Source of the DNA: Paraburkholderia sp. BL25I1N1
GTDB lineage: Bacteria; Pseudomonadota; Gammaproteobacteria; Burkholderiales; Burkholderiaceae
Assembly: GCF_003002025.1 (NCBI RefSeq)
Contig: NZ_PVZB01000002.1
Coordinates: 1 to 64,000 of the forward strand
Direction of reading: 5' to 3'
Length of the DNA stretch: 64,000 bases
Part shown: piece by piece, positions 542-10,450 of the stretch
How the letters are laid out: every line of letters begins with the position of its first letter
How positions within the stretch are numbered: the stretch's first letter is position 1
The notes under the pieces: model-generated
Seen by the model: the letters and a program-made list of their open reading frames with translations, nothing else
Database searches by the model: none
Told to the model about the DNA's origin: nothing
Translations under genes and position numbers: made by a program

Positions 542-1486
542 ATGGACAATCCAGTCGAGGAACACGTCGAGGAAGCCTCATCCGCAGCGCAGACGACAGC
601 GCTGAATCCGGAGCAGGTGCCAGTAGGCGCGCCCCTGGACTGGCCGATCGTCGACGCCGACGGCACGCTGCTGTTCGCCAGCGGCACCATCCTGGCGACC
701 ACGGACGAGCGCAAATTCCTGTTCGGGCACTTCCGTCCGCAGCGCGGCGACTTACTGGACGCGACCGCACAACCGCCACTGCCGGCAGAGCCGCAAGCGG
801 ATCCCAACGGCGAACTGACGCTCAAGGACATGCATCTGGAAATCGGCGCTTTGGTCGGTGTGCGCTCGCAGCTCGGCAGCGGCGCGCCCATGCACCCGTG
901 CCGCATCATCGGTTTCGCGCCGAATCATTCGCTCTTCGTCACTCCGCCGATGCACGCAGGCCGCATCTTCCCGCTCAGCATCGGCGAAAACATCGAGATC
1001 GTCGCGATCGCCAGCCATGCGGTGTTCCGTTTCGTCTGCACGATTGAAGCGATCTGCCGCACGCCGTTCGACTACGTCGTGCTGTCGAAGCCCGGCGTGA
1101 TCCGCCGCCTGCGCGAACGCAAATCGATCCGCGTCCGCGCGCACCTGGCGGTACGTTTCGGCATCGGTCAAAGCGGGGAATCGTATGAGGGCCTTGGACT
1201 CGCGAAAGGCATCAGCGCGCTCGGCATGTCGCTGGACGCCTCGTGGACTCTCGGCGCCGTCGGCGACCGGTTGTGCGTGGCGTTCCGCCTGAAGTCGAAG
1301 GATCTCGACATGGAGATCGAAACCACGGCGCTGATCCGCAACGTGCAGAAAGGCCGCGGCCCCGGCGAGCCTTCAACGCATGGGCTCGAACTCGATCAAC
1401 TCGATGCAGCCCAGCAGATGGCAATGAAAGTCTTCGTATTCGACCGTCAGGACGATGTGGTGTATTGGTCGAACGGCCTGAAATAA
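542..1486 (+). CDS. PilZ-domain flagellar brake protein (YcgR-like)
   Basis: A 314-residue cytoplasmic protein of the YcgR type. These proteins bind cyclic di-GMP and slow the flagellar motor. The first ~95 residues are low-complexity and acidic. A YcgR N-terminal (PilZN) domain covers roughly 98-165, and the PilZ domain follows. The c-di-GMP arginine motif is visible as R173-K-S-I-R177. The second motif reads G203-I-S205-A-L-G208, so the usual first Asp/Asn is Gly here. The gene stands alone between the rRNA leader and the convergent chlD end, with no flagellar neighbours. I chose the ATG at 542 as the first good start. The family is clear, but the motor partner is inferred. Confidence 0.8.
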   Translation: MDNPVEEHVEEASSAAQTTALNPEQVPVGAPLDWPIVDADGTLLFASGTILATTDERKFLFGHFRPQRGDLLDATAQPPLPAEPQADPNGELTLKDMHLEIGALVGVRSQLGSGAPMHPCRIIGFAPNHSLFVTPPMHAGRIFPLSIGENIEIVAIASHAVFRFVCTIEAICRTPFDYVVLSKPGVIRRLRERKSIRVRAHLAVRFGIGQSGESYEGLGLAKGISALGMSLDASWTLGAVGDRLCVAFRLKSKDLDMEIETTALIRNVQKGRGPGEPSTHGLELDQLDAAQQMAMKVFVFDRQDDVVYWSNGLK

Positions 1487-1519
1487 GCGCTCGCCCGCGA
1501 GCAACACGGCCCGCGCCGC

Positions 1520-2203
1520 TCAGCTCATCAGCATCAGTTCTTCCGGTGTCAAACGCCGCGCGCCCCAGGCATCGGCGAGCATTTCGCAGCGGCCCAGCCG
1601 GATCGCTTCGCGCTCGAAATCGACGAACACCACCTCGTCCGCATCCGGCGGCCGCGCCGGCATGTCACGCGTGCGGCCGTCGGTCAGAATCCACAACCAG
1701 CGTTGCTGCCCGGGCTTGCGGCGCGCGCTGCGATCCAGCAGCCGGGATGCACGCTGAACGCCTGCCGTCAGCGGCGTGCCGCCTCCGCCGCCCACTGGAC
1801 TCAGCCACCGCTCGTTCCACCAGCGCGGCACAGCGGGGCCGAAACGCACATCCGCACCGGCGCCGCCGAAACAGACCAACGCCGCCTCGGCTCGCGCCGC
1901 GCTTGCATGGTCGAACAAGGCGATCAGCAATCCCTTGGCGAGCGCGAGGCGCTGCCCGGCCAGCATGGAACCCGAGCAATCGAGTACGAAGCAGTGCAGC
2001 ACGCCGCCGCGCGGCGCCTCGCGCACGAAATGCAGATGCCCGGCGCGCAGCGCATCCTGGCGCTTCGCGCCGAGCGTGGCCGGCCAGTCGATGCGCTTGC
2101 CCGGTTGCCCGCGCAAGCGCCCGCGCGGACCGCCGCCCGCGCCTTGCAGCCATCGAAAACCGCTGCGCAAGTCAGCGGCGGCGCCCTTCCGATGGCTCAG
2201 CGT
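1520..2203 (-). CDS. chlD: ChlD C-terminal half (VWA domain), reached by -1 frameshift from chlI
   Basis: This frame encodes a von Willebrand A domain like the C-terminal half of magnesium/cobalt chelatase subunit D. The MIDAS motif D-C-S-G-S lies about 64-68 residues after position 2170. No ATG or GTG start exists: the only in-frame candidates are TTG at 2170 and CTG at 2200. The frame stays open upstream to the A7 run at 2203-2209 in the chlI gene. A -1 slip there joins 355 residues of the ChlI frame to about 227 residues of this frame. The resulting protein of about 582 residues has a normal ChlD size. The inferred role is as the medium subunit of the cobaltochelatase with CobN. Confidence 0.75.
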   Translation of the reverse strand, partial: TLSHRKGAAADLRSGFRWLQGAGGGPRGRLRGQPGKRIDWPATLGAKRQDALRAGHLHFVREAPRGGVLHCFVLDCSGSMLAGQRLALAKGLLIALFDHASAARAEAALVCFGGAGADVRFGPAVPRWWNERWLSPVGGGGGTPLTAGVQRASRLLDRSARRKPGQQRWLWILTDGRTRDMPARPPDADEVVFVDFEREAIRLGRCEMLADAWGARRLTPEELMLMS

Positions 2204-2209
2204 TTTTTT
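2148..2209 (-). promoter_or_regulatory. Programmed -1 ribosomal frameshift signal in chlI/chlD
   Basis: On the minus strand the zero frame reads GTA AAA AAA CGC TGA, which gives the ideal heptamer A_AAA_AAA (T7 at 2203-2209 on the plus strand). Five bases later a stem begins. AGCCATCG (2190-2197) pairs perfectly with CGATGGCT (2148-2155). Nested inside is a second perfect 6-bp stem (2173-2178 with 2160-2165). The zero-frame stop is only one codon past the slip site. Slipping back one base enters the VWA frame directly (ACG CTG AGC...). Frameshifting in cobN-linked chlD genes has been reported; its use here is inferred from the sequence. Confidence 0.8.
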
Positions 2210-3267
2210 ACGTTAAGCGGAATGACGCCCTTGACGTGCGTGGTCGCGGCCGGCTCGGGCGCGAGGTAGCCCCAGTCACTATCGCCGGTCGCGGCGGCCG
2301 GCTGCGCATTGCCTTGCGCGGATGAAGAGCGGCTCCCGGCAGGCGCCTCCCATTCGCCGTCACTCTCACGCGCCTCACCCGCCGCCGGCGACTCGCGAAC
2401 ATGCCGCCGATGAGCCAACACCGCCTCGGCCACCCGATCGACATGCTCCGCCGTCACCGCGGCCGCTTGTTCGAGCGCCGCCAACGCACGCGCCGCGCGC
2501 AGCATCACGAGATCGGCGCGCAAACCGTCCACGGCGGCGTCGATACACAGCGCGCTCACATGCGCATGCACGGCGTCGTCGAATGCGAGCTGCGGCAGCG
2601 CTTCGCGCGCCATTCGAATCCGCTCGACATAAGCCGCCTGCTGCTGCGCATAGCCCGCACGAAAACCCTGCGGATCGAGGTCGAACGCCAGCCGCGCTTT
2701 CACGATCGCCTGACGCACGAGCGGCTCGAAACAGTTCTGCAACTCGACCATCAAGCCGAAACGGTCGATCAATTGCGGCCGCAGTTCGCCTTCTTCGGGA
2801 TTCATCGTGCCGATCAGCACGAAGCTAGCGTCGTGGCTATGCGATACGCCATCGCGTTCGACGGTATTCACGCCGCTCGCGGCCGCGTCGAGCAATGCGT
2901 CGACAAGCGCGTCGGGCAGCAGATTGACTTCATCCACATACAGCACGCCGCGATGCGCTTTCGCAAGAAGGCCGGGCGAGAAGCGCACCGAACCGTCGCG
3001 CAACACGGTTTCGATATCGAGCGTGCCGATCAGACGATCTTCGCTGGCGCCAAGCGGCAGATTCACCAGTTGCCCTTCCGGCAGCAACTCAGCCAGCGCG
3101 CGCGCCGCGGTCGACTTCGCCGTGCCACGCGGCCCGGTCACCAGCACGCCGCCCAACCCCGGATCGATGGCGGCTAACAGCAGCGCCTGCTGCAACGGCG
3201 TCTGGCCGATCAGCGCGGCAAAGGGAAAAACGGGCCGCGCGGCCGCCGCGCTCATCGCTGGATTCAT
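2197..3267 (-). CDS. chlI: ChlI-like AAA+ ATPase subunit of cobaltochelatase (zero-frame product of chlD)
   Basis: A 356-residue AAA+ ATPase of the magnesium-chelatase ChlI family. Walker A is G45-P-R-G-T-A-K-S52 and Walker B includes D112-E113. The C-terminal ~60 residues are a Ser/Pro/Ala-rich linker, as found between the AAA+ and VWA domains of ChlD. The ATG at 3267 overlaps the cobN stop as ATGA and shows translational coupling; a longer reading to 3348 would run into cobN. With CobN it would form the ATP-dependent motor that inserts cobalt into hydrogenobyrinic acid a,c-diamide, in place of CobS. The same start also yields full ChlD when ribosomes slip at 2203-2209. Confidence 0.85.
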   Translation of the reverse strand: MNPAMSAAAARPVFPFAALIGQTPLQQALLLAAIDPGLGGVLVTGPRGTAKSTAARALAELLPEGQLVNLPLGASEDRLIGTLDIETVLRDGSVRFSPGLLAKAHRGVLYVDEVNLLPDALVDALLDAAASGVNTVERDGVSHSHDASFVLIGTMNPEEGELRPQLIDRFGLMVELQNCFEPLVRQAIVKARLAFDLDPQGFRAGYAQQQAAYVERIRMAREALPQLAFDDAVHAHVSALCIDAAVDGLRADLVMLRAARALAALEQAAAVTAEHVDRVAEAVLAHRRHVRESPAAGEARESDGEWEAPAGSRSSSAQGNAQPAAATGDSDWGYLAPEPAATTHVKGVIPLNVKKR

Positions 3268-6200
3268 GTTTGCATTCCTTCGATCTGCTGCTCGCTCGCA
3301 AGCAGATGCTGTTCGACTTGCGCGCGATAGTCGCCGGGCGCCTGCCACAAACCGCGCTGCATGGCTTCGAGCAGGCGCTCGCAGACCGACTGCAACGCGT
3401 GCGGGTTATGCCGTTGCAAAAATTCGCGGGTATCTGTGTCGTTCAGATAAGCATCGGTCACGAGCGCATATTGATGATCCGCGATCACGCGCGCGGTCGC
3501 ATCGTAGCCATACAGATAGTCGACGGTCGCGGCGATTTCGGCCGCACCCTTGTACCCATGACGCTTCACGCCATCCAGCCATTTCGGGTTGACCACGCGC
3601 GAGCGGATCACGCGCGCAATCTCCTCATGCAGCGTGCGCACGCGCGGCGCCGCCGGATTGCTGTGGTCGGCGTGATACACGCTCGGCTGATCGCCGGCCA
3701 GATGCCGCACCGCGGCGACCATGCCGCCCTGGAACTGGTAGTAATCGTTCGAATCGAGCAGGTCGTGCTCGCGGTTGTCCTGGTTCTGCAGCACCACGTC
3801 CATTGCGGCGAGACGTGCGCCGAACGCGTGACGCGCTTCTTCGCCCGCGCTCTTTTGCGTGTACGCATAACCGCCCCACGCCTGATACGCGTTCGCGAGA
3901 TCAGCGTCGGTTTGCCATTGCCGCGAGTCGATCATGTCCTGCAGGCCCGCGCCGTAGGCGCCGGGCCGCGCGCTGAACACGCGCCAGCCGGCGCGCTTGC
4001 GCGCTTCGGCGGCGTCCATGCCGTGCGCGATCAGCGCATCGCGTTCGCGCAGCACGCGCGCGCGAATCGGATTCAGGTCCTCGGGTTCGTCGAGTTCGGC
4101 GACGGCTTGCACGGCGGCGTCGAATAAATGCATGACGTTGGCGAAGGCATCGCGGAAGAAACCGGACACCCGCAACGTGACGTCGATTCGCGGCCGGTCG
4201 AATGCCTCGATCGGCATGATTTCAAAATCGGTCACGCGATGGCTGCCCGGCGCCCACTTCGGCCGCACGCCGAGCAACGCGAGCGCCTGGGCGATATCGT
4301 CGCCACCCGTGCGCATGGTCGCGGTGCCCCAAACGGAAAGACCGATGGCGCGCGGATAGTCGCCCTTCTCCTGCAAATGCCGTTCGATCAGTTGCTGGGC
4401 GGATTTCAAGCCGAGCGACCAGGCAGCCTGCGTGGGAACCGCGCGCGTGTCGACGGAATAGAAGTTGCGGCCGGTGGGCAGCACGTCGGGCCGGCCACGC
4501 GACGGCGAACCGCTCGGCCCGGGCGGCACGAAACGGCCTTCGAGGCCGCGCTTTAGCTGAAGCATTTCCTGCGGACCGCAGGCGTCGAGCCGCGGCAGCA
4601 CGTCGTTACGCAGACGCTCGATCACTTGCCCCGCTTGCGGCAATCCGGCGGCCATCGTGGTTACCGATGCTTGCGTTCGATCTCCGCACACGTCTCGCAG
4701 CAACTCAGCCGCCAGCAACTCCAGCCGCTCACGCGTATCGCCGCAGTGCCGCCACGGCGCATCGCTCACACGCTGAAGTACATCGGGACGCGGACCGTCC
4801 CACACCGCCGCCCAATCCACCGACAACGGATCGAACAGATGATCCATCTGCAGATCACGCGCCAGTGCGTCGATCAAGCCGGCCTTGCCGCCTTGCCCGT
4901 CGCCGACAGGAAAACGCCCCAATGCCAGCAACGTATCGCGTCGCTGCACGCCATCGGGCGATTGCCCGAACGTATGCAAACCATCGCGAATCTGCGCTTC
5001 CTTCAACTCGCACAGCCACGCATCGACGCGCGTGAGCAGCGCGTCTTCGTCGTCCTGTCCGTTCGGTGCGGCGAGACTCAGTTCCTCATGCAGCTTATGG
5101 TCGACGATGGTCGCCAGAATCGTGCGCCGCAACAGCTTCGAGCGGCGCGGATCGACCATCAGCGCTTCATAATATTCGTCGACCTGGCGCTCCAGGTCCT
5201 GCAAAGGCCCGTAGCTTTCGGCGCGCGTGAGCGGCGGCATCAAATGATCGATGATGACAGCCTGTGCGCGGCGTTTCGCCTGGCTGCCCTCGCCCGGATC
5301 GTTGACGATGAACGGATACAGATGCGGCATCGGCCCGAGAATCAGATCGGGCCAGCAGGTGTCGCTCAACGCGACGCTTTTGCCGGGCAGCCATTCGAGA
5401 TTGCCGTGCTTGCCGACATGCACGATTGCATCGATACCAAAGTGGTGACGCAACCAGAAATAGAACGCCAGATACGCATGCGGCGGCACGAGTTCGGCGT
5501 CGTGATAGCTCGCGTAGTCGCCCTGCTCGCGCGAACGCGACGGTTGAATGCCGACGAACACCTGTCCGCAACGCCAGCCCGCGATCATGAAGCGGCCGCG
5601 TCGCAGCGTCGGGTCCTGGTCTGGCGTGCCCCAACGCGCGTTCAACGCCTGGCGGGTTTCGGCGGGCAAGGCGTTGAAGTGCGCGAGATAGTCGTCGAGT
5701 GCGAGGCTTTGCAGCGCGGGACGCAGATCGCGCACGACCGGATCGTTGGTCACGCCTTCGGTGAGTTTTTTCAGCAGCGCGTCGCCGCCCGAGGGTAAAT
5801 CGGCGAGACGATAACCTTCGTCGCCCAGCATCGACAGAATGGCGACTACCGAGGCCGGCGTATCGAGTCCCACGCCATTGCCGATACGCCCTTCGCTCAT
5901 CGGATAGTTGGCGAGGATCAGCGCGAGTTTCTTGTCCGCGTTATCGAGTGAACGCAAACGGCACCAGCGGCGGCTCAGTTCGGCGAGAAAACCCACGCGC
6001 TCAAGGTCCGGCTGATAACGCACCACGTCGACCTGAGTATGCGCACAGCGGTACGCGAGTCCCTTGAAACTGATCGCGCGCGTGATGATGCGGCCGTCCA
6101 CTTCCGGCAGCGCGATATGCATGGCGATATCGCGCGAATTGAGACCCTGATTGTCCTTGACCCAATCGTCGCGATTGCCGCCGCTCAGGATCACCTGGAG

Positions 6201-7067
6201 CACCGGCGCGTCGCCGGCGAGCGCGAGCGGCTCGGGGTCGTCGATCGCGGACGCGGCGAACGCGGTCATATTCAGCACCAGCGCCACCTCGTGCTGCGCG
6301 CACAGCGATTGCACGACGTCGCGGCTCATCGCATCTTTCAGCGAGGTAATCGCGATCGGCAGCGGATTCAGACCTTGCGATTCGAGTGCGTCGATCAGCG
6401 CGTCGAACACCGCCGTGTTGGCGGCCTGCAGATGCGCCTTGTAGAACAGGATCGCCGCGACCGGCGCCCCCTGTTTCCAGCGCGCCTGCCAGTCGGCCAT
6501 GGTCGGCGTATCGCGCTCGGCATGGTAGAGCGTGGCGGCGGGCAACGCTCGCGGCGGCGCAGGCTCGCGTCCCCAGCCGAACGCGCGGTGGGCGATACAG
6601 CGCAGGAACGCCTCGGCATTTTGCGGGCCGCCTTCACGCAGATAGCGCCACAGTTGATGGCACAGATCCGCGCTTGCCGTGCTGCGCGCGAGCAGGTTCG
6701 GATCCTCCTGCAGATCGCCGGAGAACATCGCGAGCGTCTGCTGCTTGCGCTCGGCGAGCGCCACCACCTGCTCGATGCCGTAGGGCCAATACGCTTCGCC
6801 GCCCAGATGATCGACCACCACCACGCGCGCATGCTGCAAGACGTCTTCGAGATAAAAATCCACCGACGCCGGTTGCCGCAAATACGTGACGTTCGCGAGC
6901 CGCACGCTCGGGAAGCCTTCGCCCAGCCGCGGAAAAACGCTCGCCAGCAGCGACAGCGTGGTATCGGCGGAGCTGAGCACCACGATATCCGCGGGCTGCT
7001 GATCGATCCGGATCACGCCTTGCGTGTCGTCGACAAAACCGCCCGGCGTGGTGCGCAGCAGATGCAT
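3264..7067 (-). CDS. cobN: Cobaltochelatase subunit CobN
   Basis: A 1267-residue protein, the normal length for CobN, the large H-type subunit of the aerobic cobaltochelatase. It binds the corrin substrate and cobalt in the late-cobalt B12 pathway. The segment HVGKHGNLEW, near residue 550, is highly typical of CobN/ChlH/BchH proteins. The gene lies six bases downstream of cobW. Its stop overlaps the chlI start, so the three genes are one transcription unit under the minus-strand cobalamin riboswitch. The linked motor subunits are ChlI/ChlD-like rather than CobS/CobT. Confidence 0.95.
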   Translation of the reverse strand: MHLLRTTPGGFVDDTQGVIRIDQQPADIVVLSSADTTLSLLASVFPRLGEGFPSVRLANVTYLRQPASVDFYLEDVLQHARVVVVDHLGGEAYWPYGIEQVVALAERKQQTLAMFSGDLQEDPNLLARSTASADLCHQLWRYLREGGPQNAEAFLRCIAHRAFGWGREPAPPRALPAATLYHAERDTPTMADWQARWKQGAPVAAILFYKAHLQAANTAVFDALIDALESQGLNPLPIAITSLKDAMSRDVVQSLCAQHEVALVLNMTAFAASAIDDPEPLALAGDAPVLQVILSGGNRDDWVKDNQGLNSRDIAMHIALPEVDGRIITRAISFKGLAYRCAHTQVDVVRYQPDLERVGFLAELSRRWCRLRSLDNADKKLALILANYPMSEGRIGNGVGLDTPASVVAILSMLGDEGYRLADLPSGGDALLKKLTEGVTNDPVVRDLRPALQSLALDDYLAHFNALPAETRQALNARWGTPDQDPTLRRGRFMIAGWRCGQVFVGIQPSRSREQGDYASYHDAELVPPHAYLAFYFWLRHHFGIDAIVHVGKHGNLEWLPGKSVALSDTCWPDLILGPMPHLYPFIVNDPGEGSQAKRRAQAVIIDHLMPPLTRAESYGPLQDLERQVDEYYEALMVDPRRSKLLRRTILATIVDHKLHEELSLAAPNGQDDEDALLTRVDAWLCELKEAQIRDGLHTFGQSPDGVQRRDTLLALGRFPVGDGQGGKAGLIDALARDLQMDHLFDPLSVDWAAVWDGPRPDVLQRVSDAPWRHCGDTRERLELLAAELLRDVCGDRTQASVTTMAAGLPQAGQVIERLRNDVLPRLDACGPQEMLQLKRGLEGRFVPPGPSGSPSRGRPDVLPTGRNFYSVDTRAVPTQAAWSLGLKSAQQLIERHLQEKGDYPRAIGLSVWGTATMRTGGDDIAQALALLGVRPKWAPGSHRVTDFEIMPIEAFDRPRIDVTLRVSGFFRDAFANVMHLFDAAVQAVAELDEPEDLNPIRARVLRERDALIAHGMDAAEARKRAGWRVFSARPGAYGAGLQDMIDSRQWQTDADLANAYQAWGGYAYTQKSAGEEARHAFGARLAAMDVVLQNQDNREHDLLDSNDYYQFQGGMVAAVRHLAGDQPSVYHADHSNPAAPRVRTLHEEIARVIRSRVVNPKWLDGVKRHGYKGAAEIAATVDYLYGYDATARVIADHQYALVTDAYLNDTDTREFLQRHNPHALQSVCERLLEAMQRGLWQAPGDYRAQVEQHLLASEQQIEGMQT

Positions 7068-7073
7068 ATGCGC

Positions 7074-8165
7074 TTACGCCTGTTGCGATTCGATGCTCGA
7101 CGGCACGCCCAGCGCCGCGTCGAACGCACGTTGCAACGCCGGCTGATCGAGGTCTTCACCGATCAGCACGAAGCGGCTCGGGCCGCTTTCGCCGGCCTGC
7201 CAGCGTCGATCGAAATAGCTGTCGAAGCGCCGCCCAACGCCTTGAATCACCAGACGCATCGCCGCGCCCGGCAGCGCCGCGAAGCCTTTGACGCGATAGA
7301 TGGTGTTGGTTTCGACCAGCTGTTGCAACGCGGCGATCACCGCCTCGCGCGACCACGCATTCGCCTGCACGACCACGGAGTCGAACTCGTCGTGATGGTG
7401 GTCGGCGTCGTCGGCGGAGCCGTGGTGATCGTGGCGCAAGTGGATCGTGTCTTCCGACGCCGCTTCGAGGCCCAGCAACGTATGCAGATCGAGCTGGCCC
7501 ATGTGCGCGCGAACGATCTTCACTTGCGGCGGAATTTCCTCGCGGATCGAAACTTCTACCGCGCTTTGCTGCGCGTCGTCGAGCAAGTCCGTTTTGTTCA
7601 GAATCACCAGATCGGCCGCGGACAACTGGTCTTCGAACAGTTCGTGCAGCGGCGACTCGTGATCGAGATTCGGATCGGCCTTCCGCTGCGCATCCACGGC
7701 GACCGGATTATCCGCAAACTGACCGCTTGCCGCAGCCGGGCCGTCAACCACGGTGACCACGGCATCCACCGTGAAGCTGTTCTTGATTTGCGGCCAGTTG
7801 AACGCCTGCACCAAGGGCTTCGGCAACGCGAGACCCGACGTCTCGATCAGCACGTGATCGATCTGATCGCGGCGCTCCACGAGCTTTTCCATCACCGGGA
7901 AAAACTCTTCCTGCACGGTGCAGCACAAGCAGCCGTTCGCCAGTTCATACAGTTGGCCTTCGGTCTCGACGCCGTTTTCATCGCAACCGATGCCGCAACC
8001 CTTGAGGATTTCCCCGTCGATACCGAGTTCGCCGAATTCGTTGACGATCACCGCGATGCGCTTGCCGCCCGCATGCTGAAGAATATGCCGCAGCAGCGTG
8101 GTCTTGCCGCTGCCGAGAAAGCCCGTGACGATGGTGACGGGGATCTTGCGCATTTGAGTTTGCAT
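7074..8165 (-). CDS. cobW: CobW family GTPase, metal chaperone of the B12 pathway
   Basis: A COG0523 P-loop GTPase. From the ATG at 8165, Walker A is G15-F-L-G-S-G-K-T-T23, and the metal-binding motif C79-L-C-C82 follows. A His/Asp-rich loop near residue 250 is typical of members that handle divalent metals. Position directly upstream of cobN and downstream of a B12 riboswitch points to cobalt delivery to the chelatase, though the exact CobW role is not proven. In-frame starts also exist at 8177 (ATG) and 8198 (GTG). None has a strong ribosome binding site, so the start is uncertain by up to 11 codons. Confidence 0.92.
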
Positions 8166-8370
8166 CGTGAGGTCCATCCGTAGGAGTTGCACGTGCACGC
8201 CGGCGTGTTTTCAGCGCATGCCGAGGCAAACGGAGCACACGCCCGGCCAGCCACGACCATAACAAAACACGGGGACGAAAGCCGGCGTTGCCGCGACAAC
8301 AGAAAACAGAAAGCGGGAATGAGTCATGAACGCAGCGCCGCATCCCCGCGGCGTTCGTCCTTCGTTATCT

Positions 8371-8632
8371 GGCCGGTATCCGGGCTGGCGAAAGCGCCGC
8401 TTCCCCTTCCCGGACGAGTGATTTCTCGCCCAGTGGTGATATGCCGACGCGGCCTTGCGCGTGGACATCGAAGCCGGCTCCGCGGCGCTAACCGACTGCG
8501 TTTAACACTGCAGTTAGCACCACATTTCGCTTACCGTTGCGGGGGCAGCACAGGTTGGCCCGATCCATGGCAGGTGGGCACCCTGTTTCCCGTTTAACTG
8601 CATGCGCACGAGCGCGCACACGAGCACCAAAG
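8371..8632 (-). ncRNA. Cobalamin riboswitch controlling cobW-cobN-chlI/chlD
   Basis: On the minus strand the RNA opens with TTTGGTGC (about 8625-8632), continues with AAACGGGAAACAGGG, and contains the B12 box GCTGCCCCCGCAACGGTAAG (about 8530-8549). It closes with CGCCAGCCCGGATACCGGCC (8371-8390). All of these are conserved AdoCbl riboswitch segments in the expected order and spacing. About 200 bases separate it from cobW. By family knowledge, adenosylcobalamin binding should repress the downstream operon. Confidence 0.92.
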
Positions 8633-8640
8633 TGCGTGCG

Positions 8641-8669
8641 AGTGTAGGCCCGCGGCCCGGTGCCGTCAA
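8641..8669 (-). promoter_or_regulatory. Promoter of the leftward cob operon
   Basis: Minus strand: TTGACG (8664-8669), a 17-base spacer and TACACT (8641-8646). The riboswitch begins about ten bases downstream, the right distance for a transcription start at its 5' end. Confidence 0.65.
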
Positions 8670-8691: not shown

Positions 8692-8720
8692 TTATCGGGC
8701 GGGGCGCCATGTGCTATCGT
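8692..8720 (+). promoter_or_regulatory. Possible promoter of the rightward cob operon
   Basis: Plus strand: TTATCG (8692-8697), a 17-base spacer and TATCGT (8715-8720). The riboswitch starts ten bases later. It is a weaker match than the opposing promoter, but its placement mirrors it. Confidence 0.4.
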
Positions 8721-8729
8721 ATGCGCGCG

Positions 8730-8947
8730 TTTGGTGCCCGCACATGCATTCGCGTGTGCAGTTAAACGGGAAACAGGCAGCGCGCCATGCGCTTAACCTA
8801 TGCTGTCCCCGCAACGGTAAGCGACCTGCGGCGCGATGTTGAATCGACTCGCGCCGCGCATGCGTTTTTTAAGCCACTGTCCGGCAATTTCCAGCGAATG
8901 CGGACGGGAAGGCAAAGCGCGTGAGGCCGCCAGCCCGGATACCGGCC
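8730..8947 (+). ncRNA. Cobalamin riboswitch controlling cobA-cobE-cobO-cobB-bluB
   Basis: The plus strand carries TTTGGTGC (8730-8737), GTTAAACGGGAAACAGG (from 8761), the B12 box GCTGTCCCCGCAACGGTAAG (8802-8821) and the closing CGCCAGCCCGGATACCGGCC (about 8928-8947). Order and spacing match the AdoCbl riboswitch. Several stretches are identical to the opposite-strand copy only ~100 bases away, which suggests duplication by inversion or strong shared constraint. The cobA reading frame starts 150-250 bases downstream. Confidence 0.92.
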
Positions 8948-9095
8948 AGACGCGGAGGCGGCGAACCTCAGGGCAACATGCGCCGCCGGACGCCGGAATC
9001 CGCGAGGGACGGATGCGAAGGCGCTAAAAGCACGACGCAGCGTGTCCGCGTAGGCGAGTTTCGTGTGAAACTCGCTACGAACCGCGCATTGCGCC

Positions 9096-9980
9096 ATGCC
9101 TGAATCCGTAGCACCGCATGACCCCAACGTCCGCCGTCTGGCGACCCTTCGCGCTTTACCCTTTCCCGCTTGTCACGACATGGCGCCCGCCGTGCACGCC
9201 GCGATGACCCGCGCCTGGCTGATCGGCGCCGGCCCCGGCGACGTCGAACTCATGACCATCAAGGCCACCCGTGCATTGGCGCAAGCCGACGTGGTGCTGG
9301 TCGACGATCTGGTGAACCCCGAGGTGCTGCAATTCGCGCGCGCTGACGCGCTGGTCGTCTACGTGGGTAAACGCGGCGGTCATCCGTCCACACCGCAGGA
9401 AGGCATCGTCGCGCAGATGCTCGAACATGTGCGGGCCGGGCGCAGCGTCGCGCGTTTGAAAGGCGGCGACCCGTTCGTGTTCGGCCGGGGCGGCGAAGAA
9501 CAGCAGGCGCTGCACGCGGCGGGTATCGAGGTGGAAGTCATCAACGGCATCACGGCGGGAATCGCGGCGCCCGCGGCGATCGGGATTCCAGTCACGCATC
9601 GCGATCACGCGCAGGGCGTCGTGTTCGTCACCGGGCACGGCGCGGGCAGCGGCGAGCCCGACTGGGCCGCGCTCGTGGCCACGCGCATGACGCTCGTGAT
9701 CTACATGGGCATGCGGCGGCTCAACGATATCGTCGACGCGTTGCTCGCGGCCGGCATGAGCGCCGACACGCCGTGCGCGGCGATCGAATCGGCCACGCGT
9801 CCCGAGCAACGCCATGCGCTGGCGCGGCTTGGTGAATTTGCCGAGACCGTTGCGCGTACTGGACTTGGGTCGCCGGCGATCGTGGTGATCGGCGGGGTGG
9901 CGTCGCTCGCGTTGGCGCGTGAGGCGGCTCATGCGGAACGCGCTGCAACGCCGCTCGCGGACGGAACGGATTCGCGATGA
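9096..9980 (+). CDS. cobA: Uroporphyrinogen-III C-methyltransferase (SUMT)
   Basis: It methylates uroporphyrinogen III at C2 and C7 with S-adenosylmethionine to give precorrin-2, the entry step of the corrin branch. The SAM-binding loop G44-A-G-P-G-D49 and the later GGDPFVFGRGGEE motif are the SUMT signatures. The catalytic region begins at about residue 40. ATGs at 9180 or 9204 would give a more usual length of about 260 residues, and no start has a clear ribosome binding site. The stop overlaps cobE as ATGA. The gene is first in the riboswitch-controlled rightward operon. Confidence 0.92.
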   Translation: MPESVAPHDPNVRRLATLRALPFPACHDMAPAVHAAMTRAWLIGAGPGDVELMTIKATRALAQADVVLVDDLVNPEVLQFARADALVVYVGKRGGHPSTPQEGIVAQMLEHVRAGRSVARLKGGDPFVFGRGGEEQQALHAAGIEVEVINGITAGIAAPAAIGIPVTHRDHAQGVVFVTGHGAGSGEPDWAALVATRMTLVIYMGMRRLNDIVDALLAAGMSADTPCAAIESATRPEQRHALARLGEFAETVARTGLGSPAIVVIGGVASLALAREAAHAERAATPLADGTDSR

Positions 9981-10450
9981 AAACGCTCAGCGTCGGCATC
10001 GGTTGCCGTTTGCACAGCTCGGCCGAGGAGATCGAAGCCGCGGTGCGCGCCGCGCTCAACGCGCATTCGTTCGACGAAATCCGCACCGTAGCCACGCTCG
10101 ATACCAAAGCCCGCGAAGCGGGCCTCCTCGAATTCTGCGCTCGCCATGCGCTGCCGCTGACGTTCTTCAGTCTTGAACAGATCGCGGCGATGCCTGTCGC
10201 GGTGCCTTCGGCGGCAGTGCGCGAGCATCTCGGCGTGGACGGCGTCTGCGAGCCGTGCGCGCTGCTTGGCGCGGCGGCCGACGTCGCAGCCGGGCTCGGT
10301 GAATCCGTCATAGGCAATGCGCCTCGCGCCACGCTCCTCGTGCGCAAAACCGTTTATGCCGGCGTCACCGTGGCGATCGCCTCAACCACCGCTCACGCCG
10401 CTCACGCCGAACACCCAGACAACGACACACAACAACAGGACCTGCCATGA
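9977..10450 (+). CDS. cobE: Cobalamin biosynthesis protein CobE (CbiG C-terminal domain type)
   Basis: A 157-residue protein matching the small CobE / CbiG C-terminal family, with the opening VGIGCR and the central ATLDTKA-x5-LLEF region. In CbiG this domain accompanies ring contraction and lactone opening. The precise role of CobE in aerobic pathways is not settled. Overlaps on both sides (ATGA with cobA and with cobO) show tight translational coupling. The last ~25 residues are His/Ala/Gln-rich and look like an unstructured tail. Confidence 0.8.
   Translation: MKTLSVGIGCRLHSSAEEIEAAVRAALNAHSFDEIRTVATLDTKAREAGLLEFCARHALPLTFFSLEQIAAMPVAVPSAAVREHLGVDGVCEPCALLGAAADVAAGLGESVIGNAPRATLLVRKTVYAGVTVAIASTTAHAAHAEHPDNDTQQQDLP

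Follow-up and report, generated by a model that had tools for sequence, protein, structure and literature searches.

The window analysed here, a 64-kb stretch of a Paraburkholderia genome, carries on its minus strand, in this order, a cobalamin riboswitch (8354–8646; RF00174, 49.6 bits against a gathering score of 31.5), cobW (7074–8198; TIGR02475, 491.4 bits, cut-off 332.1), cobN, encoding the large cobaltochelatase subunit (3264–7067; TIGR02257, 1597.9 bits, cut-off 822.05; PF02514), and a chlD-like gene. cobN lies directly upstream of the chlD-like gene, whose ATG (3265–3267) overlaps the cobN stop. A second cobalamin riboswitch (8715–8964, plus strand) is divergent from the first and precedes the genes from 9096 on; the C-terminal half of CbiG alone (PF01890) is encoded at 9977–10450 of the plus strand, beside CobA-like and CobO-like genes.

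The chlD-like gene is laid out in two frames. Its zero frame (2197–3267) runs from the ATG to a TGA at 2197–2199 and encodes a ChlI-like AAA+ protein of 356 residues with the C-terminus NVKKR. The −1 frame (1520–2203) extends for 227 codons from the slip site to a stop at 1520–1522 and encodes a linker and a VWA domain; the predicted −1 product has 582 residues, reading TLSHR past the slip site and then the VWA domain to position 1520. An earlier reading of the letters alone, hereafter the sequence-only reading, had expected one ChlI-sized product and one of about 582 residues, and both lengths are borne out as predictions. The best family for both gene halves is TIGR02442 (one-chain putative cobaltochelatase), with the halves, scored separately, at 389.6 and 74.7 bits, under the cut-off of 779.45; the zero frame also stays under the cut-off of TIGR02030 (BchI-ChlI; 331.5 against 466.95 bits). 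Other ChlI-like matches in the genome are weak (next best E 2.4e-4), and a CobS-like gene is present (528.8 bits, under its cut-off of 558.55).

Both the site and the frames can be read directly where the frames meet. An A7 run at 2203–2209 stands in phase as the slippery heptamer A_AAA_AAA (GTA_AAA_AAA, then CGC, then TGA), just as the sequence-only reading had described it, and the zero-frame stop falls inside the spacer, one codon past the heptamer. Because a TAA at 2213–2215 closes the −1 frame upstream, a −1 transition is possible solely within the 13 bases 2200–2212, which hold the A7. The plus strand of the window contains a single T7, namely this run; a lone A7 is unremarkable, with 1.2–1.4 expected per strand in 64 kb. 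The predicted stimulatory hairpin (2148–2197) follows, and the nested perfect stems of 8 and 6 bp claimed for it are present: the outer stem (2197–2187/2158–2148) has eight perfect pairs, extendable by a G-U and two A-U pairs (8–11 bp), and the inner stem (2178–2173/2165–2160) has 6 bp. The hairpin energy is modest (z −1.84), a value attained by 10 of 200 shuffles. Since the lone A7 and the hairpin energy are both weak against chance, relatives were used for the test; at the level of sequence, the evidence beyond chance is conservation and covariation, not the A7 or the hairpin energy by themselves. A terminator on the plus strand (hairpin plus T7) was also considered and rejected, as a scan of 1400–3400 gave one site, elsewhere and on the minus strand.

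Slip site and hairpin among relatives

The chlD-like gene was found in 132 of 144 genomes of the genus; in a sample of 299 genomes from the family, 155 have it. The locus sample (n = 190, nine genera) takes in every one of the 132 genus loci and, from the 120 matches in other genera, 58; low-scoring matches (about 45–53% identity) and some members of two large genera were excluded. L096, whose zero frame is broken upstream, and L162, with A6 and an interrupted frame, were removed ahead of the count; L107, which has a run of N further down, is counted among the 188 that remain. These readable loci are related, so that counts are inflated and conservation figures are not probabilities, and all 188 hold the heptamer (A_AAA_AAA in 185, A_AAA_AAG, or A6G, in 3), a stop one codon past it (TGA 179, TAG 5, TAA 4) and a −1 frame open for at least 217 codons. 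Identity to the VWA part of the window drops to about 44% among them. The codon before the two lysine codons varies (GCA, GTA, CTA, CCA, TCA, ACA, ATA, GAA, TTA) but ends in A at all 188 loci, against about 7% expected from upstream codon use in the same genes; an A kept whatever the amino acid indicates selection on the bases, beyond the amino acids. Upstream in these genes, the lysine codon is AAA in 365 of 840 cases.

A two-helix structure of 17 pairs was scored on a non-redundant subset, 94 of the 188 sequences. Paired cells make up 89.6% against 79.8% in shuffled data and double-change cells number 149 against 46.5, neither value being matched in 500 shuffles, which ignore relatedness; pairs with double changes number 12 against 9.1, a value reached by 10 of 500 shuffles. 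With the partner slid by 1–3 columns, 27–56% of cells are paired, a comparison in which the structure has the advantage of having been hand-drawn from the window sequence. Whole pairs are replaced, A-U by G-C in 14 sequences and U-A by C-G in 20, and these replacements speak for a two-helix RNA that covaries, despite the hand-drawn model and the kinship-blind shuffles. Of the 188 loci, 157 have an 8-bp stem immediately behind the stop; among control starts taken from these genes, 1520 of 21056 have one. The 5-base spacer of the sequence-only reading is correct for the window, but conserved pairing begins one base further on among relatives, which gives a conserved spacer of 6 bases with the stop codon at its end. 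Alignment of the site across relatives, the check which that reading had proposed, returns A7 or A6G at 188/188 readable loci and covarying stems. A Shine-Dalgarno stimulator was rejected for the Burkholderiaceae set, where a Shine-Dalgarno-like core 6–18 bases upstream occurs in 11 of 188 loci, with no excess over controls (406/3384, 12.0%); in a set of named records (mostly Pseudomonas, best 80 loci) it occurs in 18 of 71, against 132 of 1278 controls (10.3%).

This named-record scan covers the best 80 loci, in genomes partly shared with the 190-locus set. Among them, 71 have A7 (28) or A6G (43) with a stop one codon later; of the remainder, six are single-frame, L266 has its A6G abutting the stop, and L227 and L230 are ambiguous. 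Pseudomonas carries the A6G site, with a stem in the same place that is spelled differently, and an 8-bp stem immediately behind the stop is present at 39 of the 43 A6G loci in the best 80. The six single-frame genes belong to Motiliproteus, Marinomonas, two Psychromonas and two Neptuniibacter (L229, L236, L241, L244, L245, L279). They align with the predicted 582-residue product over nearly the full length at 38–41% identity, the junction falling in a variable linker. At E 1e-15 or better, each of the six genomes yields one ChlI-like match and no second; cobN is present in all six, elsewhere in the genome, and CobS at E 1e-60 is absent from five, Motiliproteus alone showing it. This single ChlI-like gene suggests that a separate small subunit is possibly dispensable in some lineages. 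The idea that these six use an inverted, dnaX-like shift was considered and rejected, as the slip motifs present there are not common to them.

Predicted products and their partner

These comparisons make it very probable that programmed −1 ribosomal frameshifting operates here, one chlD-like mRNA giving a ChlI-like protein of 356 residues and a ChlD-like protein of 582. The same proposal in the sequence-only reading is strongly supported by the heptamer in 188/188 loci, the third-base A and the covarying stem, and is further backed by the absence of a conserved VWA start among the 188 loci and by the colinearity of the 582-residue product with six single-frame relatives. In the proposed mechanism, the ribosome would be held at the hairpin while lysine tRNAs re-pair one base back on A_AAA_AAA. 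Termination at the TGA would give the small subunit and a −1 shift the medium subunit; both would share one identical AAA+ module, to which the long product would add the VWA domain, and the VWA-bearing product would connect the motor ring with CobN so that cobalt can be inserted. Because the AAA+ module would be identical in both, the shift rate would directly set the make-up of the ring. We infer from the conserved site and hairpin that shifting takes place in the Paraburkholderia host, at an efficiency that would govern the subunit ratio.

Genomic linkage bears on the partner of these products. In the genus, cobN is present in 134 of 144 genomes, and the chlD-like gene in 132 of the 134 with cobN and in none of the 10 without (Fisher p 9e-14). 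The two exceptions are G128, cut by the contig end, and G030, in which unrelated sequence comes after cobN (contig C203, L198) close to the end of the contig, a rearrangement or a mis-assembly. The source genome also encodes a CobS/CobT-like pair (G000 contig C1:129924-132568; L197:7895-10641), with the CobT-like gene directly after the CobS-like one; it adjoins amino acid permease and oxidoreductase genes. Of the 144 genus genomes, 54 hold such a pair (the source genome and 53 others), the same genomes in both searches and none over the curated cut-offs. Its presence in so many genomes, the source genome included, leaves an alternative in which the frameshift is real, the pair is the motor of CobN and the frameshift products serve something else. 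We consider this unlikely: the pair does not track cobN (51/134 with, 3/10 without; Fisher p 0.74), in contrast to the frameshift gene, and at the thresholds applied 83 genomes with cobN have no pair. This difference in tracking is the reason why the frameshift products are assigned to CobN, which they would probably partner. The cobaltochelatase role that the sequence-only reading gave to the products is supported by cobN linkage, short of proof given the CobS/CobT-like pair in the same genome; the shift may also set the ratio of small to medium subunits, as that reading proposed.

The VWA frame could instead be a separate gene, with its own start or reached by reinitiation past the stop. In the window the −1 frame offers TTG at its codons 12 and 30, both lacking an obvious Shine-Dalgarno sequence at the usual distance, and some ATG, GTG or TTG lies within 50 codons in 154 of 188 loci. 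The window has no ATG or GTG before codon 60, so the earlier observation of a VWA frame open to the slip site without such a start holds, with the two TTGs added. Across relatives the possible starts fall at different places: the most frequent, a TTG 87 bases in, is shared by 29 of 188 loci (offsets counted without gaps), and at 34 of 188 the first 50 codons contain none. A separate gene would also leave the heptamer, the third-base A and the hairpin unexplained, which makes it a very improbable reading.

Slippage of RNA polymerase on the A7, giving both products from a mixed mRNA pool, is likewise very improbable. Runs of A are known to provoke it, and the available text of PMC3711429 names An with n above 7; seven As are at or below that limit. 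Moreover, a G interrupts the run (A6G) at 3 of the 188 family loci and at 43 of the 71 named loci, with a tandem slip site kept, and a covarying hairpin 6 bases behind the site fits a ribosome. A broken gene or a homopolymer sequencing error, suggested by the error-prone nature of homopolymers and by L162 with its A6 and interrupted frame, is already refuted by conservation, the same layout recurring in 188 of 190 family loci and 71 of the best 80 named loci, from many assemblies in partly overlapping sets.

Heptamer type and lysine tRNAs

Heptamer type tracks the lysine tRNAs in part, in what is essentially one contrast between two lineages. Lysine tRNAs were detected by patterns and then by ARAGORN, the patterns missing some (the UUU gene of G421 was found by ARAGORN only). 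tRNA-Lys-CUU is present in 10 of 11 A7 genomes tested, the source genome included (pattern and ARAGORN); in the eleventh, Hydrogenophaga, the patterns find neither lysine tRNA. In five Pseudomonas A6G genomes tRNA-Lys-CUU was found in none and tRNA-Lys-UUU in all, and in Denitromonas (A6G) neither was found. Counter to the rule, three Burkholderiaceae A6G genomes possess tRNA-Lys-CUU. That a CUU tRNA lowers slippage on AAG is described for dnaX (in the part of PMC5009743 available) and, with many exceptions, for insertion sequences (likewise PMC4066793). Tentatively, and with the balance somewhat against it, the slip site may be tuned to the lysine tRNAs: tRNA-Lys-CUU should grip AAG tightly, so that the A7 lineages, Burkholderiaceae and other betaproteobacteria, would need A_AAA_AAA, while Pseudomonas, with UUU alone, would use A_AAA_AAG. 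If true, chlD would preserve a natural record of how a recoding site and the tRNA pool have co-evolved.

Comparison with known systems

Frameshifting in cobN-linked chlD genes, which the sequence-only reading had called already reported, is indeed established, the accessible text of Antonov et al. (2013, PMC3711429) describing a cluster of 23 genes that includes Burkholderia. In reporter tests in E. coli, chlD cassettes gave 63, 40 and 10%, the 10% belonging to A_AAA_AAA (same part of PMC3711429). A 2016 review, in the section available, describes the structure potential as strong and the structure's sequence as not strongly conserved (PMC5009743). Chelatase genes are covered by a database of more than 1200 genomes in a 2022 paper (Kuznetsov et al., PMC9227772, available in part). 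As far as the available texts go, the known frameshifted chlD genes share with this locus the same gene, the −1 direction, an A-rich slip site, a downstream structure and cobN linkage; a ChlI-like zero frame with a VWA frame, an in-phase conserved slip site and downstream RNA structure are all found here, and there is no difference in kind. Antonov 2020 (MBE) reportedly finds both subunits made from chlD where the small-subunit gene is missing, in agreement with the 2022 paper.

The dnaX cassette of E. coli likewise combines a tandem lysine slip site with a hairpin stimulator (PMC3711429 and PMC5009743, each in the part available). In dnaX, however, the shifted product is the short one, whereas the chlD-like gene would gain its long product by shifting; the slip site here is A7 and that of dnaX A6G; and the Burkholderiaceae chlD set shows no Shine-Dalgarno stimulator of the dnaX kind (11/188, controls 12.0%). 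The locus is a deeply conserved and clean case of probable bacterial frameshifting, with the covarying hairpin as its defined candidate stimulator.

Magnesium chelatase (ChlI/ChlD) and cobaltochelatase (CobS/CobT) pair an AAA+ small subunit with an AAA+/VWA medium subunit, as predicted here. Unlike these systems, in which the pair is encoded by two genes, the AAA+ modules of both subunits here would be identical by construction; for Synechocystis ChlD, ATP hydrolysis was not observed (PMC3789969, in the part available). The CobS/CobT-like pair, together with the single-frame relatives that show no second ChlI-like gene, bears on the subunit roles that are assumed. Among the best matches in the literature searched, the coverage of which leaves most subscription journals outside, no title concerns the Paraburkholderia instance and none links lysine tRNAs with chlD. 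The Paraburkholderia locus adds a member to the published chlD frameshift group, and what is added to that group here is the two-helix covariation in Burkholderiaceae, the comparison of heptamer and tRNA, and a CobS/CobT-like pair in the same genome.
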